From a virus: a DNA stretch of 23,948 nucleotides. This document shows positions 3 through 21,534 of this stretch, piece after piece (positions within the stretch are counted from its first letter, which is position 1; the number at the start of each line of letters is the position of its first letter). The stretch is taken from positions 1 to 23,948 of the IMG/VR virus record IMGVR_UViG_3300025828_000195; one strand, 5' to 3'. Below the pieces are notes generated by a model. That model searched no databases. It was given only the letters and a program-made list of their open reading frames with translations, and was not told the DNA's origin. The position numbers and the translations under genes were made by a program.

Positions 3-746
3 TCTGAATTAGGTAAGACTATTGGTGATGCAAAGATGGGTATTGTGTTTCACACTACCTACACAGGTGGAACGATTGAAGATTTAAGTGCATCCTTTGG
101 TGCAAACATTTCTAGTTTAGGACACAGCAGAGATGTTTGGATTGATGATGCAAAGTATAAAGATGAATCAGGTAGTTCATCTATGACTGCAAAAGAAAGT
201 GTTGAACTTACAAAAGTATTAACTGACGTAGGAAAACAGTTTCATCTGATTAAAAAGAAAGACTTAGATACTTTTAGAAAAATACAAGACACTGTTGCTG
301 CAAAGTCAGCTGCAGGTGCATCATACAAGACATACACTAATGGATTAATTAGAGGTAATAGTTTTAAACCTACCTACGAAGGATATATTACACACTTTGA
401 AAGTTATTGGACTGATAAAGTAGTTGGTAAAGTAAAACAAGAAAAAACAAAACAGATGAAGAGAGAGATTGGTGAACAAGTATTAAGAGAACTCAGAAGT
501 TTGAAGAACTTTCTAATTGCACTCACCAAGTTTCAAGAGAAGATTGTAGAGGCAAAGAGTATTATTATAAACTCTCTAAATAGAATAAAGTCAATCGGAA
601 CTTTTGTAGAAACAGATAAAGGATTGAAAGCAGTAAATCCTGAAGGATATGTTTGCATAGACATTAATGGTAAGGCTGTCAAGTTTGTTGACAGATTAGA
701 ATTTAGTCAGAATAACTTTACTGCAACAAAGAACTGGAGTAAATAG
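3..746 (+). CDS. conserved phage protein, DUF6267-like, 5'-truncated
   Basis: The reading frame is open from the first full codon at position 3 to a TAG at 744-746, so the true start lies upstream of the window. The ATG at 36 sits inside the conserved stretch (SELGK..., then GIVFHTTYTG) and is not a credible start. That stretch matches my memory of the C-terminal half of a protein common in T4-like marine phages (DUF6267). Its biochemical role is unknown. The middle part is lysine-rich and helical (roughly 90-150 residues after position 36), without a signal peptide or membrane segment. The stop codon overlaps the GTG of the next gene (TAGTG), which suggests translational coupling. I am sure the gene is real, and moderately sure of the family. 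Confidence 0.8.
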   Translation, partial: SELGKTIGDAKMGIVFHTTYTGGTIEDLSASFGANISSLGHSRDVWIDDAKYKDESGSSSMTAKESVELTKVLTDVGKQFHLIKKKDLDTFRKIQDTVAAKSAAGASYKTYTNGLIRGNSFKPTYEGYITHFESYWTDKVVGKVKQEKTKQMKREIGEQVLRELRSLKNFLIALTKFQEKIVEAKSIIINSLNRIKSIGTFVETDKGLKAVNPEGYVCIDINGKAVKFVDRLEFSQNNFTATKNWSK

Positions 747-2618: not shown

Positions 2619-3917
2619 ATGTTAAATATGATTTTAGAAAAATTTAAAAAAGCTGCAAGACAGGATAAAGACATCGAAGATAGAGATGGAACTCAACCTG
2701 CAAAATACTATGGTAAGGATGCAGAGGGAGACGAAATGTCTAAGTCTACTAAACAAGACCGTGCAAGACACTTTGAGAAAGGTGCAGAGAAGGACGATAA
2801 CGACTCTTCTGCATACAAACCTGCACCAGGCGATGCAACTGCAAAGACTAAACCTTCACAACACACTAAGAAATTTAAAAAGATGTTTGGAGAAGATGCA
2901 CAGGCAGCTGCCAAACTCAAAGCAAAACAGGCAGATGAACTAGAAAGACTTAAAGACAAACAGACAGATGAGTTAGAAGCACTCAAAGATAGACACGAGA
3001 GACAAAACGAAACTCAAAAAGATAAAGACACTACTGAAAAGGAAAACGAGACTCTTCAAAAACAAAGAGATGCAGAAAGAAAAGCTGCAGAGAAAGAAAG
3101 AGAAAAGGCAATGGAGTCTCTCTTAGATACACTTGATACACTACCCGATGCAGAAGACTCTACACACTTAAGTGAGTTAGAGGAAGGAGATGCAGATAAA
3201 TCACTTGAAAGTAAAGCATCGAAGTCAGGAATTGCAGTTGGTATTCTAAAACAAGTGTATAAGAGAGGAGTAGCTGCATGGAGAACAGGTCATAGGCCTG
3301 GGACTACCCCTGAACAGTGGGGACATGCAAGAGTTAATTCCTTTATCACAGGGGGTAAGACAAGAACCACTGCTGATGCAGACCTATGGAAACAACACTC
3401 AGGTAAAAAAGAAGAAGTCACAGAAAAAAGACTTGCAGATAGACAAAGAGAAAAAACTAAGTCTCAACAAAAGGCACATCAAAAAGCAATGATGAAGTCT
3501 GCAAGAGACTCTATTAAGAAATATCAAAAGGGTAAAAAAGAAGAGACTGAAGTCGAAGAAGAAAGAGATTACAAAAAAGAGTATGCAAACTACCATTCTC
3601 AACCTGAACAAATCAAAAGACGTGCAAAGAGAAATGAAGCACGTAGGTTAATGAAGAACAACAAAGATATTAAGGGAAAGGACGTTCATCATAAAGATAA
3701 CAATCCTATGAATAACGATAAGTCTAATCTATCAATAGTAACACAGAAATTCAACAGAACAGAACCAAGACTCAGAACAGAAGTTTTGGATAAATCAGCA
3801 ACTCAACAAGACTACATTGATGATTTCCTGAAGTCAGATGCACCTCAATTTAAAGGTAAGACAAAGGATAAGATTATTAAGATGGCAGTTGCAGCTTACA
3901 ACGAGAGGAACAAATAA
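2619..3917 (+). CDS. coiled-coil + DUF5824-like + HNH-motif fusion protein
   Basis: This 432-residue, highly charged protein has three parts. Residues 95-165 are a long Glu/Lys/Gln coiled coil. Residues 203-258 (GIAVGILKQVYKRG, then AWRTGHRPGTTPEQWGHARV) match a conserved module I recall from many marine phages (DUF5824-like). Residues 325-385 carry an HNH-type motif (HHKDNNPMNNDKSNL at 357-371) preceded by a basic helix (YHSQPEQIKRR), a pairing common in phage proteins. A prohead-protease-like site (LEE|G, 189/190) separates the coiled coil from the DUF module. The start is either ATG 2619 or ATG 2628; I chose 2619 because it lies where a late transcript would begin. It could be a packaged nuclease or a structural protein. 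The function is not proven. Confidence 0.75.
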   Translation: MLNMILEKFKKAARQDKDIEDRDGTQPAKYYGKDAEGDEMSKSTKQDRARHFEKGAEKDDNDSSAYKPAPGDATAKTKPSQHTKKFKKMFGEDAQAAAKLKAKQADELERLKDKQTDELEALKDRHERQNETQKDKDTTEKENETLQKQRDAERKAAEKEREKAMESLLDTLDTLPDAEDSTHLSELEEGDADKSLESKASKSGIAVGILKQVYKRGVAAWRTGHRPGTTPEQWGHARVNSFITGGKTRTTADADLWKQHSGKKEEVTEKRLADRQREKTKSQQKAHQKAMMKSARDSIKKYQKGKKEETEVEEERDYKKEYANYHSQPEQIKRRAKRNEARRLMKNNKDIKGKDVHHKDNNPMNNDKSNLSIVTQKFNRTEPRLRTEVLDKSATQQDYIDDFLKSDAPQFKGKTKDKIIKMAVAAYNERNK

Positions 3918-4989: not shown

Positions 4990-5522
4990 TGAAAACATTT
5001 CATCAAATCACAATCAACGAAACACTTGATACACTCCAACAGGAGAAAACAAACCTATTAGACAATCCGTTTAGACTAGGTTCTATGATGTATTTCGAGA
5101 CCATCAAAGAAGCACGTAGATTAGTTGCAGAAGGTCGATACACACTTACTGAAGTAGACAAACAAATACTTGAAACAGATATCGGTGAGTTTGAAGTGTA
5201 TGAGGGAGAGATTGTCCCACTTGATTGTCCAATGATAATGGAAGAAAAAGATGTTGAACTGAACAAACCTAAAGTGGGTGGTTCAAAGAAATACTATGTA
5301 TATGTTAAAGACCCATCAACAGGTAATATCAAAAAAGTTTCTTGGGGAGACACAACAGGTCTCAAAGTTAAAATAAGTGACCCCGAAGCACGAAAGAGTT
5401 TTGCAGCTCGTCACAAATGTGACCAACAGAAGGATAAAACAAAAGCATCCTACTGGGCATGTAGACTTCCTTATTATGCTAAGCAATTAGGACTATCGGG
5501 TGGTGGGAGCTTTTACTGGTGA
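4989..5522 (+). CDS. conserved phage protein, DUF5872-like
   Basis: This is a 177-residue protein. The C-terminal half (about 97-177) is a module found, as I remember, in many marine phages: KKYYVYVKDPSTGNIKKVSWGDTTGL, then ISDPEARKSFAARHKCD, KASYWACRLPYY and a GGGSFYW end (DUF5872). The N-terminal half has a second conserved patch (FRLGSMMYFETIKEARRL). Two Cys and two His in the C-terminal module (RHKCD, WACR) might bind metal, but no classical zinc motif is present. Its biochemical role is unknown. The N-terminus MKTFHQITINE weakly echoes the capsid-targeting-like starts of nearby genes. It starts at the TAATG overlap with the structural gene before it. Confidence 0.75.
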   Translation: MKTFHQITINETLDTLQQEKTNLLDNPFRLGSMMYFETIKEARRLVAEGRYTLTEVDKQILETDIGEFEVYEGEIVPLDCPMIMEEKDVELNKPKVGGSKKYYVYVKDPSTGNIKKVSWGDTTGLKVKISDPEARKSFAARHKCDQQKDKTKASYWACRLPYYAKQLGLSGGGSFYW

Positions 5523-5528
5523 TATATT

Positions 5529-5843
5529 ATGAAAAAAACAACACAAAGAAGAGAATTAGTTCACGAATACTGGAACGGTAGTCGAAGAGCTCACGTAGTC
5601 TACGATTCAAATAAGGGTTGGGAAGTAGAAATGTTTAAGGATGATGGATGGATGGCATTAGTTCCACTACATAACCATTCAGAATCCTATGCAGAATCAG
5701 CTGCAGAAAATTGGGTAGAAGGAGTCTATCCCATAGATTCAAAACATCTACAAATAAAAAATGACCCAACTAATCCTAATAGTGTAGGATATTATGGATA
5801 CAATCAAAAAACAGACAACTTTGACCCCGAAGTCGATGACTAA
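5529..5843 (+). CDS. hypothetical protein
   Basis: This 104-residue protein begins 6 bases after the previous stop. It is rich in Trp, Tyr and His (HEYWNGSRRAHVVYD, WEVEMFKDDGWMALVPLHNHSES) and has an acidic C-terminus (FDPEVDD). It has no membrane segment. I do not recognise the family. Its 3' end overlaps the likely start of the cupin-like gene by 8 bases, so the two are probably co-translated. Confidence 0.65.
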   Translation: MKKTTQRRELVHEYWNGSRRAHVVYDSNKGWEVEMFKDDGWMALVPLHNHSESYAESAAENWVEGVYPIDSKHLQIKNDPTNPNSVGYYGYNQKTDNFDPEVDD

Positions 5844-10310: not shown

Positions 10311-10386
10311 GCTGGATTAGCTCAGTTGGTAGAGCAACTCACTTGTAATGAGAAGGTCGCGAGTTCGACTCTTGCATCCAGCACCA
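10311..10386 (+). tRNA. tRNA-Thr (UGU anticodon)
   Basis: This is a complete 76-base cloverleaf: acceptor GCTGGAT/ATCCAGC, D arm GCTCAGTTGGTAGAGC, T loop with GTTCGA, and an encoded CCA. The anticodon loop CTTGTAA gives TGT, which reads ACA. The first anticodon-stem pair is an A-A mismatch. It begins one base after the previous stop. ACA is a common Thr codon in the neighbouring genes. Confidence 0.95.
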
Positions 10387-10393
10387 CTTTCAT

Positions 10394-10469
10394 GGGGCAT
10401 TAGCTCAGTTGGGAGAGCGCCTGCTTTGCAAGCAGGAGGCCGTGGGTTCGATTCCCTCATGCTCCACCA
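10394..10469 (+). tRNA. tRNA-Ala (UGC anticodon)
   Basis: This is a complete 76-base cloverleaf: acceptor GGGGCAT/ATGCTCC with one G-T pair, D arm GCTCAGTTGGGAGAGC, anticodon stem CCTGC/GCAGG with loop TTTGCAA, T loop GTTCGA, and an encoded CCA. The anticodon TGC reads GCA, the dominant Ala codon in this window. Seven bases separate it from tRNA-Thr, so the two are probably cut from one transcript. Confidence 0.97.
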
Positions 10470-19751: not shown

Positions 19752-19782
19752 AAAAAACCCTTGACAATGGGTCTCATTTTTT
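19752..19782 (+). terminator. weak terminator-like hairpin overlapping the next promoter
   Basis: ACCC (19757-19760) pairs with GGGT (19769-19772), with TTGACAAT in the loop. An A6 run upstream can pair with the T6 run at 19777-19782. The core stem is only 4 bp, so termination strength is uncertain. The layout copies the element at 18867. Confidence 0.4.
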
Positions 19783-19790
19783 AGTATACT
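19761..19790 (+). promoter_or_regulatory. sigma70-type promoter before the nucleotidase gene
   Basis: TTGACA at 19761-19766 and TATACT at 19785-19790, 18 bases apart, form a near-consensus promoter. The predicted start, about 19797, leaves a leader of about 3 bases before the ATG at 19800. No ribosome-binding site is present. Confidence 0.75.
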
Positions 19791-19799
19791 AATATAGTA

Positions 19800-20312
19800 A
19801 TGAGAATATTTAAGAGAAAAGAAGTGAAAAGAATTTTTGTAGATATGGATGGAGTCGTAGCAGACTTCTTGGGTGGAGTTAGTGAACTGATTGGTTATCA
19901 ATTGACTCCTGACGATAAAGGTCATGTAGAATATGACGAGAGAAAAGAAGAGTTAACTAACAAAAGACTATTCAGAAACTTGAAACCACTACCTGATATG
20001 TATGACTTGATTGCATACATCAGACACACTGGACTTCCTTGGGAAATCCTAACTGCTGCTGGTAAGGTAAACAGAGAATTAGTAGTCTTTGACAAGAATG
20101 CATGGGTTAGAAGATATATTGACCCTAGTGTGGTTGTGACTTGCACTATGAAAGGAAGTCAAAAGGCTGCATTTGCAGAGCCTGGAAGTGTCCTCATCGA
20201 TGACAGAAAGAGAAACATCGAGTGTTGGGAAAAAGCAGGTGGTATCGGAATACTACATACTAGTGCAAAAGATACAATTAACAAATTAAAAGCTTTAAGA
20301 GCAATTAAATAA
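19800..20312 (+). CDS. HAD-family 5'-deoxynucleotidase-like protein
   Basis: This 170-residue protein is of the 5'(3')-deoxyribonucleotidase type within the HAD superfamily. Motif I is D15-M-D17-G (FVDMDGVVADF), where D15 would be the phosphorylated nucleophile. Motif II is T85 (ILTAAG), a Lys of motif III lies in MKGSQKAAF (K118 or K122), and motif IV is D134-D135 (LIDDRKRN). It probably dephosphorylates deoxynucleoside monophosphates and so balances precursor pools, complementing the nrd operon. It has its own consensus promoter and a near-leaderless start. Just 5 bases after its stop, a structured non-coding segment begins. Confidence 0.85.
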   Translation: MRIFKRKEVKRIFVDMDGVVADFLGGVSELIGYQLTPDDKGHVEYDERKEELTNKRLFRNLKPLPDMYDLIAYIRHTGLPWEILTAAGKVNRELVVFDKNAWVRRYIDPSVVVTCTMKGSQKAAFAEPGSVLIDDRKRNIECWEKAGGIGILHTSAKDTINKLKALRAIK

Positions 20313-20317
20313 GTTTA

Positions 20318-20463
20318 AGACTGTGGAATATCGGGGACTAGTCATCCCTTCCACTAGAGTGGACTGAAGAACAAATGACGATTGTGACGAGTAAGATTCC
20401 AGTCTAGAACTCACCGAAACACTACTGAAGAGTATTGTATGAAGTAGGTGAGTTCGTTTTTTA
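20318..20463 (+). ncRNA. candidate structured small RNA
   Basis: This 146-base stretch between two genes has no open frame of note but holds several helices that I can pair by hand. A closing helix AGACT-(GT bulge)-GGAAT with ATTCC-AGTCT joins 318-329 to 396-405 (add 20000). Inside are GGGA/TCCC (334-337 with 345-348, 7-base loop), TCCAC/GTGGA (350-354 with 359-363, TAGA loop) and ACAA/TTGT (371-374 with 382-385, 7-base loop). AGTC (340-343) can pair with GACT (362-365) as a pseudoknot. A 9-bp hairpin with a T6 run ends it. It could be a processed small RNA or a structured 3' end of the nucleotidase message. No known family matched from memory. Confidence 0.55.
20407..20462 (+). terminator. 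terminator arm of the candidate RNA
   Basis: GAACTCACC (20407-20415) pairs perfectly with GGTGAGTTC (20447-20455), followed by G and TTTTTT (20457-20462). An inner TACT/AGTA helix (20423-20426 with 20443-20446) stacks on it, leaving a 7-base bulge and a 16-base loop. The arm is longer than typical terminators but has the right 3' end. Confidence 0.7.
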
Positions 20464-20475
20464 TAGGTAATAAAT

Positions 20476-20685
20476 ATGTGGAAATGGTTGGAGAAGATGA
20501 TTTCTCCTAAAAAGTTAATCCGTGTCTCATTTAATAGTGAATGGGGTGACGGTGATGATAAAGTCTATCGAATTAAAAAAATATTAATTCAAAAAGAGAA
20601 TCATCTGAAATTCAAAGACGAGAACGATAAAGTCATTGAATACAGAAGTGCAGCTGGATTAAACTACATAGTAGAGGACGAATAA
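20476..20685 (+). CDS. small hypothetical protein
   Basis: This 69-residue protein starts MWKWLEKMISPKKLIRVSFNSEW. It is basic at the N-terminus and beta-rich further on (DKVYRIKKILIQKENHLKFKDENDK). AGGT 9 bases upstream may serve as a weak ribosome-binding site; the sequence AATAAATA overlapping its ATG is not placed to act as its late promoter. It precedes the spanin-like pair and overlaps the next start (TAATG). I do not recognise it. Confidence 0.6.
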   Translation: MWKWLEKMISPKKLIRVSFNSEWGDGDDKVYRIKKILIQKENHLKFKDENDKVIEYRSAAGLNYIVEDE

Positions 20686-21068
20686 TGAATCAGTTTTTTA
20701 TCGCAATAATTTTAGTATTGGGGGGTGGGTGTTATTTCCTATGGAATGAAAACCAAACTCTAATTCAAAACAACGTGTTGTTGGAAGGTGCAGTAGAACA
20801 ACAACAACAAGCAATGGATGCACTTCAGAGTGCATTTCAACGACAGACCTCTGCACTAAATAATATGACTGCAAAGAACGCAGAAATTGAAGCAGATATG
20901 GATAGATATCTTGATATCTTTCGTAGACATAATCTAAATCGACTTGCAGAGGCAAGACCTGGCTTAGTCGAAACAAGAGTAAATAACGGAACTAAAGAAG
21001 TATTCGATAGTATAGAAAATGATAGCAAAGAACTTAGCAACCTTAACAATCCTAGTAACAATCCTTAG
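20685..21068 (+). CDS. Rz-like inner-membrane spanin (predicted)
   Basis: This 127-residue protein has one N-terminal transmembrane segment (about 4-20, FFIAIILVLGGGCYFLW) with no signal-peptidase site, followed by a long Gln/Glu/Asn-rich coiled coil (22-75). That is the topology of inner-membrane spanins, which help fuse the inner and outer membranes at lysis. Its last 50 bases overlap, in another frame, the start of a lipoprotein gene, the classical Rz/Rz1 layout. The C-terminus is polar (SNLNNPSNNP). Identification rests on topology and gene arrangement, as spanins have little sequence conservation. Confidence 0.7.
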   Translation: MNQFFIAIILVLGGGCYFLWNENQTLIQNNVLLEGAVEQQQQAMDALQSAFQRQTSALNNMTAKNAEIEADMDRYLDIFRRHNLNRLAEARPGLVETRVNNGTKEVFDSIENDSKELSNLNNPSNNP

Positions 21069-21534
21069 TGGTTGTTCTCTATTGGGGACTAGACCTATTG
21101 AGGTCAGAACGGTTCCTGTAAAAATAGATATAGCACAACCTACACTTCCTAGAGAGATTAGTTTAACAGAACCACAATGGTATGTGGTATCTGAAGCACG
21201 TATTGTCAATAGATGTATTGAAAGACTACAAGACGATGGGTCAATGAAGAGACCTGATACTTGTCTACAAGAGGATAGAGAACATCCTGATTGGCCAGAA
21301 GGTTATACATATCTAGATAAATTTCTAGATGAAATGAGAAAACAGAACGGTGGAAGTGTTGTCTTTGTTGCAACATCAATCGGTGACTATGAAGTCATGT
21401 CTACAAATATGCAAGAACTCAGAAGGTATATCCGAGAACTTGGAGAAGTCATTATATATTATCGTAATGTAACACTACCCGATGGAGAAGAAGGTGTAGG
21501 TGTAGGTGTGAGATTGAATGGACAATCAGAATAA
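21019..21534 (+). CDS. lipoprotein, probable outer-membrane spanin partner
   Basis: This 171-residue protein has a signal sequence with lipobox LSGC (Cys19, after the hydrophobic stretch LATLTILVTI), so it should be lipid-anchored. Residue +2 is Ser, which favours sorting to the outer membrane. It starts 50 bases before the end of the Rz-like gene in a different frame, as Rz1 genes do. It is longer than most Rz1 proteins: after a short Pro-containing part (APQPTLPRE-like region at about 40-48) there is an alpha/beta domain (GGSVVFVATSIGDYEVMSTN, ELRRYIRELGEVIIYYRN). I recall similar proteins in marine T4-like phages. It may be a spanin with an added domain. Confidence 0.7.
   Translation: MIAKNLATLTILVTILSGCSLLGTRPIEVRTVPVKIDIAQPTLPREISLTEPQWYVVSEARIVNRCIERLQDDGSMKRPDTCLQEDREHPDWPEGYTYLDKFLDEMRKQNGGSVVFVATSIGDYEVMSTNMQELRRYIRELGEVIIYYRNVTLPDGEEGVGVGVRLNGQSE

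Follow-up and report, generated by a model that had tools for sequence, protein, structure and literature searches.

The intergenic spacer at positions 20318-20463 of the window (the whole 23,948-nucleotide stretch of viral DNA analysed here) is, on comparative sequence evidence, a member of a structured RNA family whose shape is conserved among T4-like phages from metagenomes. The core of this RNA is made up of a closing helix and three hairpins, and it is followed by a linker, a 3' hairpin and a run of T residues. It is a small structured RNA previously unlisted as a family, with no match in Rfam. The spacer probably encodes a structured RNA of about 140 bases that acts in trans, a reading drawn from the stand-alone, relocating character of the RNA, its tertiary contact and a conserved interior that resembles a docking site; judged by these features, the RNA would most likely be protein-binding.

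In the window, the RNA follows an NT5C-type 5'(3')-deoxyribonucleotidase gene, with a gap of 5 bases between the stop codon and the core, and it precedes a 69-aa ORF with no known function and Rz-like spanin genes. The features of this locus are:

19761..19790, plus strand: strict sigma-70-type promoter match, TTGACA-N18-TATACT, 5' of the nucleotidase gene
19800..20312, plus strand: NT5C-type 5'(3')-deoxyribonucleotidase gene, upstream neighbor
20318..20463, plus strand: whole RNA, comprising the core (P1-P4), linker, 3' hairpin P5 and T-run (covariance model R1 match, covariation)
20318..20329, plus strand: P1 5' strand, closing helix, with a bulge at 20323-20324
20333..20349, plus strand: P2 hairpin, with loop TAGTCA (20339-20344) as one side of the kissing contact (covariation)
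20351..20362, plus strand: P3 hairpin, CCAC-TAGA-GTGG
20363..20392, plus strand: P4 arm, with an outer helix, an internal loop, the inner helix ACAA/TTGT and the loop ATGACGA (covariation)
20376-20381, plus strand: TGACGA of the P4 loop, second side of the kissing contact
20396..20405, plus strand: P1 3' strand, closing helix
20407..20455, plus strand: P5 3' hairpin, 9-bp stem
20419-20441, plus strand: conserved 23-base interior of P5, ACACTACTGAAGAGTATTGTATG
20457..20462, plus strand: T6 run of the terminator
20476..20685, plus strand: 69-aa ORF, downstream neighbor
20685-21068 and 21019-21534: Rz-like spanin genes, after the 69-aa ORF

The gap that holds the RNA is 163 bases long and, read by eye, is the longest among the ORFs taken as genes; the first-pass annotation had described most gene gaps as shorter than 40 bases, and by eye just three others exceed that length. 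Stop codons occur in five of the six frames across the gap; the sixth, on the minus strand, is open for 54 codons. The promoter match at 19761 is the only strict one of its type in the window, and a transcript that starts there and runs through the nucleotidase gene would have the window RNA at its 3' end. A search of the whole window against Rfam 15 at the gathering threshold returned only two tRNAs elsewhere in the window (the genes for Thr (TGT) and Ala (TGC), at 10311-10469), and a search of 401 bases around the RNA with E up to 5 gave one chance hit outside the RNA. According to ARAGORN and Rfam, the window RNA is neither a tRNA nor a tmRNA. A hammerhead-like reading, for which CUGANGA and GAAA serve as the consensus, was rejected because the order of the elements misfits by eye, and no Rfam ribozyme was matched. 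Full-text literature searches returned no title or abstract describing the RNA, which is not proof that it is unpublished.

Relatives were collected by several routes. A query with the nucleotidase yielded 72 loci, and a clear relative lies 3' of the nucleotidase in seven of them (L001, L002, L027, L030, L031, L033, and L051), with the spacer of L001 identical to that of the window; L028 and L029 contain the 3' hairpin motif alone. Two motif patterns brought further relatives, after pattern hits judged by eye to be coding were dropped (ten distinct hits from one pattern search and eleven from another), and the pattern CACTRCTGAAGAGTA added one new member (L127), its other matches being coding or chance by eye. 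A further route was R1, a covariance model built from the 33 distinct cores of the alignment A1 described below; the window core, itself among the source rows of R1, scores 93.8 bits. R1 finds a single core match per record in 48 of the 49 pattern-picked records, the 49th (G003) being a false hit in coding sequence. Among the nucleotidase-picked records there is an R1 match (E < 1e-10) in 9 of 50 and 2 of 22, or 11 of the 72, and one record of the set of 22 (G036) is also among the pattern-picked records; weak hits of 12.8-17.8 bits in G086, G117, and G077 were not counted. With five further records added, and L342 and the window besides, the core is present in 65 records, with one match in each. 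It occurs in three of the five nucleotidase-picked records of 120-155 kb, and from this fraction together with the 11 of 72 it follows that the RNA is not universal.

The carriers are related to Pelagibacter and cyanobacterial myoviruses: by NrdB, the nearest named relatives are the Pelagibacter phages HTVC008M (67%) and Mosig (65%), followed by Synechococcus phages (62%). The RNA is absent from the three named phages tested (HTVC008M, Mosig, and Synechococcus phage S-B64), a 21-bit R1 hit in Mosig being a chance match inside the DNA polymerase gene. When named phages were searched by BLAST, neither the spacer nor a composite probe nor a PNKP-type locus gave a real match to the RNA; a 31-base hit in LR756502 was discarded, as P2 and several pairs are missing from its alignment. 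In genome contigs, a search with the P5 pattern found nothing and one with the P4 pattern found a single match, the contig L342, which is binned with a Synechococcus MAG, such binning being weak evidence of the host. L342 contains an alternative oxidase gene, as well as nrd genes that by eye resemble those of the window phage. The MAG of L342 belongs to the Synechococcus-type family, and under stricter filters none of the remaining 200 family genomes contains the core.

The coordinates and parts given in the first-pass annotation are borne out on the sequence. The closing helix pairs A20318-T20329 with A20396-T20405 through ten base pairs and a 2-base bulge (20323-20324), and the three inner hairpins lie at 20333-20349, 20351-20362, and 20363-20392. 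The minimum free energy structure of the window RNA alone omits the closing helix and is unexceptional (z = -1.30, with 21 of 200 shuffles folding as well), so that it is comparison across relatives that carries the case. Two alignments were used: (i) A1, a structure-free MAFFT alignment of 37 raw rows minus 4 duplicate cores, leaving 33 distinct cores; and (ii) A2, in which 39 of the 65 records, picked as distinct, were fitted to R1 and which leans to the structure, one row being identical to another, so that it holds 38 distinct sequences. In A1, both partners vary in 26 of the 32 named pairs; double-change cells number 185, compared with 75.2 (sd 8.7) in shuffled alignments and at most 58 in slid controls. 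In A2, two-sided changes that preserve pairing are seen at 27 of the 32 core pairs among the 38 distinct sequences, with 254 double-change cells against 88.1 (sd 8.8), a count reached in 0 of 500 shuffles, and no more than 67 in slid controls. All nine modelled pairs of P1 and all four of P3 are changed on both sides in A2; the outer helix of P4 is the weakest part, with 55.5% of its cells paired. RNAalifold on A1 recovers just portions of P2 and P3, and the remaining structure was named by hand from the sequences and then counted, which makes it something other than a blind prediction. A lack of compensatory changes in homologous spacers had been set beforehand as the refutation of the structure, and such changes were found; the family shows covarying secondary structure, as a stand-alone structured small RNA would. 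A further remark, that CTGAAGA occurs twice, holds in that both copies are present, but the repeat itself is due to chance, as the word appears in 1 of the 38 distinct cores and only the copy in the 3' hairpin is part of a conserved motif.

Hairpins 2 and 4 have mutually complementary loops, with TCGTCA, TCGTTA, TAGTCA and others in L2 and TGACGA or TAACGA in L4, and comparison of the sequences identifies L2-L4 as a covarying kissing contact, within or between molecules. In the window, TAGTCA (20339-20344) faces TGACGA (20376-20381) with five of six pairs formed, and what had been put forward as a possible pseudoknot is supported as covariation. Although the alignment model leaves out the kissing pairs, their double-change cells number 16, compared with 5.0 (sd 3.7) in shuffles; the number of pair types in the helix is no higher than in shuffles (4 vs. 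5.4). Mapped onto a tree from which the loop columns were withheld, columns 26 and 63 switch jointly from C-G to T-A, with four changes each, and all three independent supported pairs are concordant and none opposed, although a sign test with three pairs cannot reach 0.05. In L030, TCACTA faces TAGTGA, which swaps two further kissing pairs. The 26-63 pair is broken in 8 of the 38 distinct rows and the 23-66 pair in 13, and these rows suggest a contact of about 4-6 pairs.

The perfect 9-bp arm described earlier at the 3' end is present, with GAACTCACC (20407-20415) pairing with GGTGAGTTC (20447-20455) ahead of the T6 run at 20457-20462. In members of the window type, the P5 stem is 8-10 bp long and varies in sequence yet remains paired, and the interior, ACACTRCTGAAGAGTATTGGATG, is nearly constant (alignment A3, from which, of 21, L315 with its 5-bp stem was omitted). 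L211, L217 and others have a related interior, CTGCTGAAGAG, with a different right half, and the interior is unrelated in L213, L236, L253, and L342. The same P5 interior as in the window RNA is also carried by a second, distinct RNA, here called RNA-B (GGGTAGCGCAAGAAT...GGAGAAGGAGCCCCC...), in which the apical loop differs from the window type in three of four cases. An element of another kind, ATTTTTCGGTGTG followed by a terminator-like hairpin (GGGAGTTTTGACT...), is conserved in the same gene slot. Their positions are:

L315 about 2190-2365, L325, and L338 about 3600-3760: RNA-B
L028 about 5490-5600: RNA-B, reduced form
L018 5648, L028 5681, and L029 5681: ATTTTTCGGTGTG element, with similar elements in L034 and L036

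A nearly constant interior that is exchanged between RNAs could be a targeting module, in which case the RNA would act as an antisense small RNA, with the P5 interior or the loops pairing with host or phage mRNAs. This is quite unlikely: the P5 interior differs in some members, and the interior or its complement occurs, with up to three mismatches, in just 2 of the 201 genomes of the Synechococcus-type family, a count that weighs little since the host is uncertain.

The genes around the RNA bear on whether it serves a neighbor. The RNA occurs in at least seven neighborhoods, so that the core is not tied to one neighboring gene. It follows NT5C, a PNKP-type phosphatase gene, a DnaB-like helicase, alternative oxidase or tRNA-Glu, and in other loci it lies beside porphobilinogen deaminase or a large non-coding-looking stretch; a tRNA gene is nearby in only some loci. 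Among 34 loci sorted by hand, the core comes after the nucleotidase in six, after a PNKP-type gene in 15 (the identity confirmed in L211 and L267 as Pfam HAD_PNKP and PHROG polynucleotide kinase), after the large non-coding-looking stretch in four and after a strict promoter in seven, while L233 and L253 stand apart from these groups. The L253 contig, 156 kb long and containing gp23-type genes, has a hemC-type porphobilinogen deaminase gene (1373-2215) directly 3' of the RNA.

Transcriptional riboswitches are commonly laid out as a multi-branch core with a loop contact and a terminator behind it, and the next gene in the window (the 69-aa ORF, with the spanin genes behind it) is on the same strand as the RNA; the first-pass annotation listed a riboswitch-like element for the downstream genes among its options. 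Across the family, the downstream genes do not keep to the strand of the RNA. In 12 of the 34 loci, the longest of the ORFs that begin in the 500 bases downstream runs on the opposite strand, which contradicts riboswitch control as a general role, and the downstream genes are by eye unrelated to one another. These opposite-strand frames include gp23, which by sequence is the next long frame in 8 of the 15 PNKP-type loci and was confirmed in L301. A cis-acting riboswitch or attenuator is therefore highly improbable.

A stop codon lies no more than about a dozen bases from the start of the core in 18 of the 34 loci (the gap is -6 to 4 in 14 of the 15 PNKP-type loci), and none of these 18 has a strict promoter of its own. 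Together with the terminator-like P5 and its T-run in the window, this would fit a 3'-UTR element, that is, a stabilizing or processing structure plus terminator for the upstream mRNA with no role of its own. Against this, a strict sigma-70-type promoter match lies directly 5' of the core in seven of the 34 loci, at near-fixed spacing, its -10 box ending 6-9 bases from the core (random 60-base windows give a background of 0.0032), and an eighth is seen by eye ahead of the core in L342; the upstream genes are unrelated between groups; and the covarying kissing contact and conserved loops exceed what a terminator needs. A 3'-UTR element as the whole explanation is thus unlikely. The protective 3' structure proposed at first may still be an additional role, given the cores near stop codons, but it leaves the copies with their own promoter and the kissing contact unexplained.

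Of the three functions first proposed, then, the small regulatory RNA is the one that gains support, from the compensatory changes, the single match per record, the shifting neighborhoods and the apparent promoters in seven loci. As a trans-acting small RNA, it would be made from its own host-type promoter with a start near the first base of the core or, alternatively, as the 3' end of a longer mRNA, and the P5 terminator would end the transcript. Tentatively, the kissing contact may lock a compact core for a phage or host protein, with the P5 interior as a second dock, so that during infection the RNA would act in a ribonucleoprotein or as a decoy and not in the control of neighboring genes; this detailed version is possible but falls short of being probable.

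The large stretch that precedes the core in L077, L088, L098, and L301 covers about 0.7-1 kb without long ORFs (for example, L301 about 850-1500), and these stretches are mutually alike, most strongly over the last 350 bases. The distance from the end of the PNKP gene to the core in L267 is about 1,050 bases. A pattern from the stretch, ACCTATACAGAATCCGAG, matched 21 contig stretches, and these are followed by the core in 11 cases, by RNA-B in four and by a short hairpin with a terminator in six, RNA-B and the short hairpin having been sorted by eye. That any of the three may follow the stretch indicates that the cassette behind it is exchangeable. Against Rfam with E up to 1, the stretch gave only hits far below threshold; on the opposite strand of the same L301 contig, a glutamine riboswitch (RF01739, 46.4 bits) is found at 271-398 (minus strand). 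Judging from its sequence, the stretch probably encodes a large structured RNA, with the PNKP-type gene on one side and an exchangeable 3' cassette on the other. It is a long shot that the core, RNA-B and the ~1 kb RNA, which lies beside one or the other, form an exchangeable kit that assembles through the P5 interior and loops, in one molecule or among several, into an RNA particle used in infection. If so, the kit would be an RNA machine new to phages, of a kind with the GOLLD and ROOL cages or the packaging-RNA ring.

Several known phage RNAs invite comparison. The packaging RNA of phi29-type phages is branched and has two mutually complementary hairpin loops, features that the window RNA shares, although it has no Rfam match to that RNA; no T4-type phage is known to use a packaging RNA of this type. 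RNAC and RNAD of T4 (species 1 and 2), described as stable and given no function in the relevant section of PMC9697503, are like the window RNA in being small (about 120-140 bases by the record note and that section) and in belonging to a T4-type phage. Homology was rejected, as R1 reaches at most 1.6 bits on the RNAC/RNAD region with filters off; RNAC ends by eye in a tRNA-like T arm, unlike the window RNA, and both T4 RNAs lie inside a tRNA cluster, whereas the window family is near tRNA genes in some loci only. GOLLD and ROOL, as portrayed in the pertinent part of PMC12286853, are structured phage RNAs of unknown function that have kissing loops and frequently neighbor tRNA genes. They are 600-800 bases or more in length and form multimeric cages, in contrast to the 140 bases of the window RNA; the ~1 kb stretch is closer to them in size, and neither it nor the window RNA has an Rfam match to GOLLD or ROOL. 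The manA and wcaG motifs are structured RNAs of marine T4-like cyanophages that, in the passages of PMC2864571 devoted to them, sit in the 5' UTRs of metabolic genes and are thought to be cis-acting, while the window RNA has no fixed downstream gene and no Rfam match to either. Structured RNAs of lytic phages are few and mostly without known function; RNAC and RNAD are examples with none assigned (PMC9697503). The window RNA combines strong comparative support, a tertiary contact, a size compact enough for structure work and a swappable P5 module, and its family offers a concrete handle on what the structured RNAs of phages do.
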